Source of the DNA: Yponomeuta sedellus
Lineage: Eukaryota > Arthropoda > Insecta > Lepidoptera > Yponomeutidae
Assembly (NCBI GenBank): GCA_934045075.1
Contig: OW203734.1
Location: 16,163,680-16,227,679, forward strand
Reading direction: 5' to 3'
Length of the DNA stretch: 64,000 bases
The position numbers and the translations under genes are program-made. Below are positions 6,901 to 9,900 of the stretch, in pieces; position 1 is the first letter of the stretch, and each line of letters opens with the position of its first letter. Below the pieces are notes generated by a model. That model was not told where the DNA came from and ran no database searches. It saw only the letters and a list, made by a program, of their open reading frames with translations.

Positions 6901-9900
6901 AAAACAGAGTTCTTATTATTAAGGTTAGCAGTTCGTGTCTGTTGTGATGGAATACGTTAAGATGGATCACTTGATATAATGAGACAGAGATTTTACGATC
7001 TTAAAAAGCTCGGAACGAGTAAGCTAAAACGACATGGTGAATACGTCTCGAATGATTAGCTCATTTATCAGAGCGTACTAAAATTCTGAAAACCCCTGGC
7101 CTTACTCAACGCTTGCTCCCGTTCCCGACTACAGGTGGCCCTCGACAAGCAGACCAAGGAGATCGAGGCCAAGCGGCGTGACGTCATGGCCGACCTGGCG
7201 CAGGTGGAGCCGGCCGTCATCGAGGCGCAAAACGGTTTGGTCCTTCGCTCCTATGCTCCTAGACTCGCCGCACAAGTCAGGGGTTGTCTTACTTTTGTAA
7301 GACTAATAATCTAAAAATCTGGTCTAAGCCAAACATTTGCGGTCATTTTAGACATATTTTAATCTTTATTTACATCACAGTTTTTGATAAAAAAAAAAAG
7401 AAAAAAGAAAGAAAAAGAAGAAGATTCGTAATTTTTATAACGAAAATCTGGTTTGATATATTTTTTGTTTATGACGCATACAGCCTTATGTGCAACACTA
7501 TCGTAAGATGTAGAGAGTTGACTGTCACGTGTTATAACTTTACATTTCAAAACATGATCGTAACTGATGTAGAAAGTAAGATAATCCCTGAGGTACTTCA
7601 AAAAAATGTGTAGTTATTTACTAGCATACTAGTTGGCTCAGCTTTTTGAACTCACACAAGTAGTGTGTCACTTGTTCGTGACGTAACAATGTACCTGTAT
7701 CTAAAGCTGTTAAGAAAACCTCAATAACAATCAACCTGTACGTACAAATAAATCGAGGAAAATTTCAAATGTAACGAATACAAAAAAAACAACAGTCACG
7801 CTAACTCTCTCCCCGAAACAACGCAACAGCCGTCCGTTCCATCAAGAAGCAGCAGCTCGTGGAAGTGCGGTCCATGGCGAACCCTCCGTCCGTGGTGAAG
7901 ATGGCTCTGGAGTCCATCTGCACGCTGCTGGGCGAGCGCGGCGACACCTGGAAGGGCATCCGCTCCGTCGTCATGAAAGACAACTTCATCTCCACCATCG
8001 TCAACTTCGAGACTGAGAACGTTACGTTAGTTCACGGCTTAAGGTTGCGGCTGAGGTGACGTGCCTTTACGTTGTCATTGAAGTGGGTCAGAAAGTGGTT
8101 CGATTCTTCCTGAACTGCGTTACTATCTTCGTTTTGTATTACCTCTGGCGAGCAAATGTCAGTTACAAACCCCAACATTCCTGCATCGCGCAATCAAAGT
8201 GTTTCACGTGACATACCATAAATGTGGCGTCCGACTAAAAACAGTCGGACCGGCCGTCCCCAGGCATGCGATCTGTCTGGTGAGAAATTTCCCTTTATAG
8301 TGGAAGAGCACGATCACCCGCTCTTTCCTATATACCAAAGGCTTTTAAGGTTGATTCTGCCATTAGTATTGGCTGAAAGGTCAGGAAATGGACATTGGCA
8401 TTTACTACTCTCTTCATAAAATGCGACGGAACGCACACGCCCGCGCAATTCTTTCTGGTCTAAACGAACCTAATGAAGATTTGTTGTGTAATTAAACGCT
8501 ACGTGATTTTATCTTAACTGACTCGTTCTTCGTGAAACGTAAATACATGTCATCTTGGTAATAATTATTTACCCATCCAAGTAACTTCTATCACGTGAAA
8601 TATTTAGAGTAAAACTGCATTGATAGCAAGCATTGTAAACCTTTATTAATTTGTAATAGTTAGACATTCAATTGTTTGTTATTGGCAAACACATTTTAAT
8701 TGATTGCTTTTGAAATGTTGTCGTTGGATTGTTATTTAGAAACGTTTATATATTATATTTGCCAATGTTTTATTATCATGTCAAACTGTTATGAGCATTT
8801 TATTATTTTAATTTTAGGTTTTAAGTTACGTTGTAAATAAGCTAAGCTTCGCTTGCGTATGTGACTGTTGTTATTAAAATGAAACATCTCATAAAAACTG
8901 TAATACAATAAAAAAAGCATTTTATCCTAGACACTACTAAATCAATTGTGTATGTGACTAACATCACTAAAAACCAAACTAGACGTTCGTAAACGTTAAC
9001 AGAAATTTAATTATAAATGTTCTATGTGATTGACCTATGTTCTGTTCCAGCCAAAAAGGGCTTTAAAACTGCGAGCGAGAAGTAGTCAATGTAAAGTTTA
9101 ATTTTTAAATCTCTGCACAGACTATGCCGGTTACGCTACATATGGCTGACCCGGTCCGATACGTTTCTATAGACTTTTCTTACATACGTCTTACGCAAAT
9201 AATTCAGCCAACCCTAGCGTAACCAGTACGGCCTGCTCGCTCGCACAACAAAGCGCTCTATAATAACTGCAGCCGCATGTCACACACACAGCTAAACAGC
9301 CAATTTTTTGTTTCCCTCCCTCTCGTAACGCTCTCTCGCTCTCGCTTCGGCCCGGTGACGGACACTACAGCCGTGAAGAGTATCAAGAAGCAGCACCTGG
9401 TGGAAGTCCGCTCTATGGGCAACCCACCGGCCATCGTCAAGGTGGCGCTGGAGTCGATCTGCCTTCTGCTGGGTGAAAACGCCACGGACTGGAAGGCCAT
9501 CCGAGCGGTCATAATGCGAGAGAACTTCATCAATAGTATCGTCAGCAACTTCTCTACGGAGGACATAAAGTGAGCTAGCACGGGCTTCTACGGTCGGTCT
9601 GGCTAGGCGCTTTGCTTGTGGTGGTGGTGTTGGGCAGGCATTTCGTTTGATGTTGCAGGTTTTTTTGGCGTTGTCTGTTAAGGACCCGAGTGCTACCCCT
9701 TTTGCAGGAAACATGACTCCTACGGGTTCCAAAATTGACCTTGGTTCTGTCTTGAGGTAACGTTTGGTTTAACGAACATTCCTCGAACTTGTTGCAAATT
9801 CATCGTCATTTCAAATGTCTAATAACGCCGTAACCGTTTACAGCTTTGCTAAAAAGCTGAGTGTTTCTGCAGTATAAAAGGGTTACGGATTTTTTTTATC

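Follow-up and report, generated by a model that had tools for sequence, protein, structure and literature searches.

Cytoplasmic dynein is usually treated as a motor with a single heavy chain that owes its diversity to adaptors and regulators, and the question raised by the locus described here is whether a single heavy chain gene may itself specify two different motors. The locus lies in a 64,000-nucleotide stretch of the genome of the moth Yponomeuta sedellus (assembly GCA_934045075.1, contig OW203734.1, positions 16,163,680 to 16,227,679), hereafter termed the window, and includes two homologous exons, 8a and 8b, for part of the microtubule-binding domain (MTBD) of a dynein heavy chain (Dhc). 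Very probably, this dynein-1 heavy chain gene carries mutually exclusive MTBD exons, giving two complete motors whose grip on the microtubule may be tuned by the exon chosen.

The locus is the lepidopteran cytoplasmic dynein-1 heavy chain gene (Dhc64C/DYNC1H1 type). An Ostrinia furnacalis protein (P0114) could be mapped, one exon after another, from residue ~1738 to 4671; the matches span the window and the adjoining 33 kb of a 40-kb upstream segment, and the first 1737 residues lie beyond the DNA examined. The best match of the stalk is DYNC1H1, and the stalk assembled with 8a aligns from residue 3174 of a 4646-residue DYNC1H1 chain of the PDB set, which we take to be human. The Pfam domain MT (PF12777) is matched at 134.5 bits by the stalk with 8a and at 132.4 bits with 8b. 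These matches, and the structural ones given below, agree with the original prediction, made from the DNA letters alone, that the segment is the dynein MTBD. It had also placed 8b closer to vertebrate DYNC1H1. This holds overall, as 53 of 66 residues of 8b and 45 of 66 of 8a are identical to DYNC1H1, but 8b carries an inserted residue, of a type seen only in insects among the species-labelled rows, and 8a has the human state at positions 3311, 3340 and 3350 (human numbering here and below) and is without the insert. Top identities were 97% to Ostrinia for 8a and 98% to Plodia for 8b.

As predicted, 8a and 8b are homologous (44/66 residues identical; tblastn E ~1e-27), open and equal in phase, each beginning at the second base of one split codon and ending at the second base of another. 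The stalk reading frame is open with 8a alone and likewise with 8b alone, and the expected frame shift was found for the remaining combinations: inclusion of both exons leads to a TGA at 9474 and omission of both to a TGA at 11584, each >90 bases ahead of the next exon junction. Messages of these two kinds would then be destroyed, and each correctly joined message would give one of two full motors. The pair encodes the N-terminal part of the MTBD (the end of the first stalk coiled coil, CC1, and H1 to H4); H5, H6 and all remaining parts of the motor are common to both forms (Table 1). A mutually exclusive exon pair is strongly supported by this frame logic, together with the deposited 8a proteins, the conservation of 8a and a cassette swap in the conger eel, all described below. 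The window holds no third copy of the cassette (tblastn; next best E 0.28). A search of the host genome (657,547,554 bases in 57 contigs) with 8a DNA returned two matches, 8a and 8b, so the cassettes are not members of a scattered family. A 67-amino-acid B-type cassette searched against viral and genome contig collections matched no locus.

Table 1. Exons and intron of the Dhc stalk region in the window
Feature	Position	Strand	Remarks
Dhc exon, start of stalk coiled coil CC1 (constant)	4450..4609	+	translation RHYLDFI..VKSQ; alignment to the DYNC1H1 chain (4646 residues) starts at residue 3174
Dhc exon, CC1 (constant)	6657..6758	+	
Dhc exon, end of CC1 (constant)	7135..7234	+	donor ACG|GTTTGG
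MTBD exon 8a (A type, 196 bp)	7830..8025	+	CC1 end, H1, H2, H3, H4; without insert; K at human 3344; donor TAC|GTTAGT
Intron separating 8a and 8b, 1345 bp	8026..9370	+	canonical GT-AG
MTBD exon 8b (B type, 199 bp)	9371..9569	+	inserted residue (IVSNF); R at human 3344; donor AAA|GTGAGC
Dhc exon, rest of MTBD (H5, H6) and start of CC2 (constant)	11564..11681	+	
Dhc exon, CC2 (constant)	12290..12505	+	
Dhc exon, CC2 and beyond (constant)	13190..13345	+	

Use of 8a is indicated by deposited proteins. A full-length protein search gave 203 matches, of which 120 were listed, and the following counts are among the matches listed. In at least seven proteins, representing six species, 8a is linked to the exons on either side, with DDVREKM downstream: Ostrinia furnacalis X6 and X3, Diatraea saccharalis, Choristoneura fumiferana X2, Spodoptera frugiperda X3, Spodoptera litura X2 and Leptidea sinapis X2. 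8b alone is joined in at least 11 entries, ten of them lepidopteran (nine species) and one from a caddisfly. The exceptions are Choristoneura P0121 and Plutella P0065, which carry 8a and run off after it, and Spodoptera exigua P0107, which carries both cassettes with extra sequence between them and is read as a misannotation. Both types are conserved within Lepidoptera, with a mean pairwise identity of 0.946 (lowest 0.879, 8 rows) for A cassettes and 0.976 (lowest 0.910, 11 rows) for B cassettes. A protein search with 8a as query returned 62 proteins, including 12 with ≥88% identity (88-98%) over 51-66 residues. All 12 are exon-level open frames from contigs, and all read on past the exon as T-L-V, which implies a conserved GTTRGT donor, as in the window.

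Two alternatives bear on the status of 8a. That it is a dead or dying duplicate, never spliced in, is scarcely credible: its donor and acceptor do score weakest of the gene's introns, but the exon is intact and 88-100% identical in eight lepidopteran sequences, and the 12 further frames retain both the protein and the donor. The original prediction had counted a disabled 8a in related species as evidence against itself; in the relatives seen the exon is undamaged, and annotated isoforms use it. That 8a, or joint inclusion, is mainly a poison switch, with early stops that lower the dynein level, would be in keeping with the two TGA codons and with the weak splice sites. A poison exon, however, has no need to conserve 66 residues. 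The protein sequence of 8a is conserved, and in deposited isoforms 8a occurs without 8b and leaves the frame open; this alternative is very unlikely. Judging from sequence conservation and the seven joined proteins, 8a appears to be no relic but one member of a mutually exclusive pair.

The splice sites framing the pair were ranked against introns of the same gene, a small, home-made yardstick: of 53 junctions, five could not be placed, and 40 of the 48 placed showed good protein agreement and were used. Among the donors, the shared upstream one (7234) ranks last of the 40 and that of 8a scores under all 40; the 8a acceptor is the weakest. The 8b acceptor is second weakest, the shared downstream acceptor (11564) fourth weakest and the 8b donor sixth weakest. 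The sites had been called good acceptors and donors in advance; they are canonical GT/AG but lie among the weakest of the gene. Such a cluster of poor sites, five of six ranking among the four weakest, is expected if inclusion depends on regulators, and the choice between 8a and 8b may be left to these or to RNA folding. As anticipated, exclusion is unlikely to be steric, because the 1345-bp intron between the exons is not too short to splice. None of the three donors (GTTTGG, GTTAGT and GTGAGC), compared with the U12 donor consensus, is of U12 type, and with ordinary GT-AG introns at this spacing neither U12 incompatibility nor steric hindrance explains exclusion. At the protein level, the frame shift and decay of wrong messages would suffice for exclusivity.

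Duplex scans between introns were run on the DNA of this single species. The best upstream by middle intron duplex reached -33.3 kcal/mol (best of 12 shuffles, -34.4), the best upstream by downstream duplex -38.2 (-37.4) and the best middle by downstream duplex -48.3 (-40.5). For the best duplex (8206-8283 with 9556-9635), 11 of 400 window shuffles were as low, the windows having been pre-chosen as the best of many; for 7237-7298 with 10494-10549, nine of 400 were as low. Pairing of the intron after 8a (~8240) with sequence just after 8b (~9590) is a weak lead. Rfam, at gathering thresholds, gave no matches between 4000 and 14000.

What the swap may change was considered on an AlphaFold model of a B-type MTBD (P0067; mean predicted local distance difference test [pLDDT] score of 89.4), which matches dynein stalk/MTBD structures and places H1 at 3301-3308, H2 at 3315-3327, H3 at 3335-3342 and H4 from 3347. 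A model of the 8a exon alone was moderate (mean pLDDT 74), and structural claims therefore rest on the P0067 model and on published contacts. Tubulin salt bridges reported in passages of three papers, with yeast (PMC7042235), mouse (PMC6629372) and human (PMC11215527) numbering, were transferred to human numbering in this analysis and fall at 3301, 3306, 3308, 3336, 3344 and 3384, of which 3384 belongs to the shared exon. In the alignment, 8b has all five of the cassette residues, and 8a has four, with R3344 replaced by K. The expectation that the exons differ where the fold faces the filament is thus borne out by an R-to-K change at one salt-bridge position and not at the four other positions, which are identical. 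Position R3344 is taken here to correspond to yeast K3160, and R3344Q is, we assume, a patient mutation. In yeast, charge loss at three MTBD positions including K3160 is described as impairing dynein spindle movements (PMC6733598, in part). As 8a keeps the charge at 3344, loss of binding is not predicted.

Within Lepidoptera, A and B cassettes show 19 fixed differences and the one inserted residue. Positions 3297 (end of CC1) and 3303 (H1) account for one difference each; H2 has four, H3 three and H4 two, and two more follow H4. Four consecutive ones occupy the H2-H3 loop (3331-3334: K/R-G/S-D-T versus N-A/T-T-D), and two the H3-H4 turn (R3344K and E3345D). The H2-H3 loop is the site at which, according to the sections consulted of a 2019 study, some axonemal dyneins bear a flap touching the next protofilament, and natural change at this site alters microtubule contacts (PMC6629372). 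The axonemal case concerns separate genes and an 18-residue insert, whereas in the moth four residues are replaced within one gene. By alignment, both motors keep the salt-bridge charges. The differences are densest in three places: the H2-H3 loop, R3344K/E3345D and H4. The swap most likely tunes microtubule affinity, release or side contacts, binding itself being kept. The 8a and 8b motors could differ in microtubule affinity or behaviour, possibly by tissue or sex.

It is also conceivable, if doubtful, that both isoforms are made and are functionally interchangeable, the pair being kept since loss of an exon is hard or since splicing itself is regulatory. The presence of all tubulin salt-bridge charges in both, and the conservative nature of many changes, would fit such equivalence. 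Set against this are the 19 fixed differences and the indel, with each type ≥88% identical across the sequences compared, a combination that suggests distinct constraint.

The age of the pair was addressed with 238 cassettes or cassette pieces extracted from 226 retrieved proteins; 13 cassettes fell outside the pattern used. A one-residue insert (SN, NN, GN or TN after IV) occurs in 52 of the 238, and every one of these also has N3349 and A/T3340, the signature of 8b in the window. Species-labelled cassettes with the insert come only from Lepidoptera, Trichoptera, Coleoptera, Hymenoptera, Diptera and Hemiptera. The state without insert and with S3340 is that of 8a and of cassettes from beetles (Tribolium, Coccinella, Aethina and the first copy of Asbolus), a lacewing, a flea, orthopteroids and a damselfly. 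N3349 alone is not a mark of the B type, being present in eight insert-less cassettes, including the first Nymphon copy, Chamberlinius and Ornithodoros. Planococcus and one bug-like full-length frame combine N3349 and A3340 without the insert, and the hemipteran-like insert-less N3349 cassettes P0171 (Planococcus citri), P0153 and P0036 group inside Hemiptera; these probably represent loss of the insert. The order A then B is found in the gene models of Spodoptera exigua and Asbolus verrucosus, and the Habropoda and Glossina models have a partial first cassette followed by a B type. A search for the duplicated exon in other arthropod Dhc genes had been proposed at the outset, and two-cassette models were indeed found in moth, beetle, mite and sea spider.

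In the best tree, 21 insect B rows form one group (92/85.6, not starred). The trees were built on 66 columns, and six named groupings were enforced as constraints, none of which was rejected by the approximately unbiased (AU) test (p 0.096-0.431); with so few columns, trees cannot reject a Lepidoptera-only duplication. NG86 estimates between 8a and 8b are 0.264 nonsynonymous (dN) and 0.824 synonymous (dS) substitutions per site, and of 41 identical residues, 27 are encoded by the same codon in both exons, where codon usage would predict 22.0. A young, Lepidoptera-specific duplication, with the copies of beetle, sea spider, mite, snail, worm and fish being unrelated events, accords with the dS value and with AU p values of 0.249 for Lepidoptera A + B, 0.181 for beetle A + B and 0.431 for vertebrate A + C. 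It is nonetheless unlikely, given that B cassettes of six insect orders share the insert, N3349 and A/T3340 and form one group in the best tree, that the beetle model has an A-like and then a B cassette, and that codon sharing is little above chance. The pair thus probably predates the Coleoptera/Lepidoptera split, a date that follows from the shared signature, not from the tree.

Several points weigh against two ancient, differently tuned motors from one gene. The deposited 8a isoforms are database gene models, and among the 44 matches of one protein search no protein with 8a joined downstream was found. Inverted-repeat and duplex scans gave no convincing docking/selector pairing to explain exclusion. 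Four of the five cassette salt-bridge residues are identical and the fifth change conserves charge, so that a functional difference is something we infer. As to age, the Lepidoptera A + B clade is not rejected, 8a sits on its own long branch in the tree, and a dS of 0.824 would not by itself prove great age.

Second cassettes are not confined to insects. Two different cassettes occur in 11 of the 226 retrieved proteins, four from insects and seven others; P0105, initially counted as a further case, was dropped, its two pieces being one interrupted cassette. The others comprise models of Nymphon (sea spider, P0110), Leptotrombidium (mite, P0120), Batillaria (snail, P0109) and Trichuris suis (nematode, P0112), the Coryphaenoides rupestris entries P0063 and P0122 (one labelled low quality) and a fish-like genomic frame (P0064). 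Several copies are incomplete, and the second Trichuris copy is very divergent. In the conger eel, Conger conger, isoforms X1 and X2 (P0219 and P0225; 4643 amino acids each) differ at 16 positions, all inside the cassette (3293-3358). The same kind of alternative cassette was observed in Erpetoichthys X2 (P0223). Alternative cassettes from vertebrates, four in all, fall into a single clade (100/98), and neither the grouping of vertebrate A with vertebrate C cassettes (VertA + VertC, AU p 0.431) nor that of vertebrate with lepidopteran A cassettes (VertA + LepA, AU p 0.421) was rejected. With the balance even, the MTBD exon may be a recurrent or ancient bilaterian switch, by which many animals make two motors with distinct, separately conserved tips and change grip by splicing, independently of adaptors. 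The animals concerned would be insects, chelicerates, molluscs, a nematode and ray-finned fish, with flatworms added only if the Schistosoma exon discussed next is the same.

A mutually exclusive cytoplasmic dynein heavy chain exon is described in passages on SmDHC1 of Schistosoma mansoni (Pillmann et al. 2011, PMC3228551). SmDHC1 belongs to the same gene family as the moth gene, and it too has one exon in duplicate, with homologous copies that start and finish within codons and are judged mutually exclusive; the passages name no domain and no insect or fish dynein. Judged by titles and the starts of abstracts, this was the only mutually exclusive dynein heavy chain exon among the open-access papers listed, and on the same basis no report of an MTBD exon pair in insects or fish was found there, subscription papers being outside the scope. 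Term searches found neither "dynein" nor "DYNC" in the text of PMC9741552, and no word beginning "exon" or "splic" in PMC11215527, on fly Dhc MTBD mutations. Database isoforms named "dynein heavy chain, cytoplasmic" (Ostrinia X3/X6 and Conger X1/X2) hold the swap or one side of it, as gene models only. Several maternally deposited Dhc64C isoforms are noted in embryos of Drosophila pseudoobscura and Drosophila miranda (PMC5147784); the exons are unspecified in the passage concerned, and these may or may not involve a pair of the 8a/8b type. Tuning of a motor by mutually exclusive exons is documented, in the parts consulted, for arthropod muscle myosin heavy chain, Mhc (Odronitz and Kollmar 2008, PMC2257972). 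Mhc and Dhc are alike in that one motor gene has mutually exclusive exons for functional motor parts. In Mhc, which encodes an actin motor, there are several exon clusters with two to six variants each, but in Dhc, the gene of a microtubule motor, there is just one pair, and it encodes the tip that binds the track. Exon-tuned motors are therefore already known, and the surprising part is the recurrence of a dynein MTBD pair across phyla. If the interpretation is correct, a splicing switch in the track-binding tip adds motor-intrinsic diversity, and insect Dhc experiments that edit or express one isoform may miss the other.

Other features of the locus include minisatellites derived from exon edges of the same dynein gene, at L006:2840-6137 (just upstream of the window), window positions 3380-3627 and 27040-27658, and L006:689-1274. 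Three arrays repeat an exon end with its donor (125 bp x 26.4 copies, 99% alike; 67 bp x 3.7; 144 bp x 3.3), and one array, with a 64-65 bp unit, repeats an acceptor. It is unusual for a single essential gene to contain repeated splice sites, and the arrays may be an assembly artefact. Elsewhere in the window, a retrotransposon without long terminal repeats (non-LTR) is represented on the minus strand by a frame with endonuclease and reverse transcriptase (50827-53772; RVT_1, 132 bits) and an upstream ORF1-like frame (53773-54558). A 282-codon open frame on the plus strand (38506-39354) has a DDE_3 endonuclease domain and is presumably a Tc1/mariner-like transposase. An open frame on the minus strand (46216-46584) has a metallopeptidase domain (Reprolysin, family M12) and is probably an exon of an ADAM-type neighbour gene on the strand opposite to Dhc.
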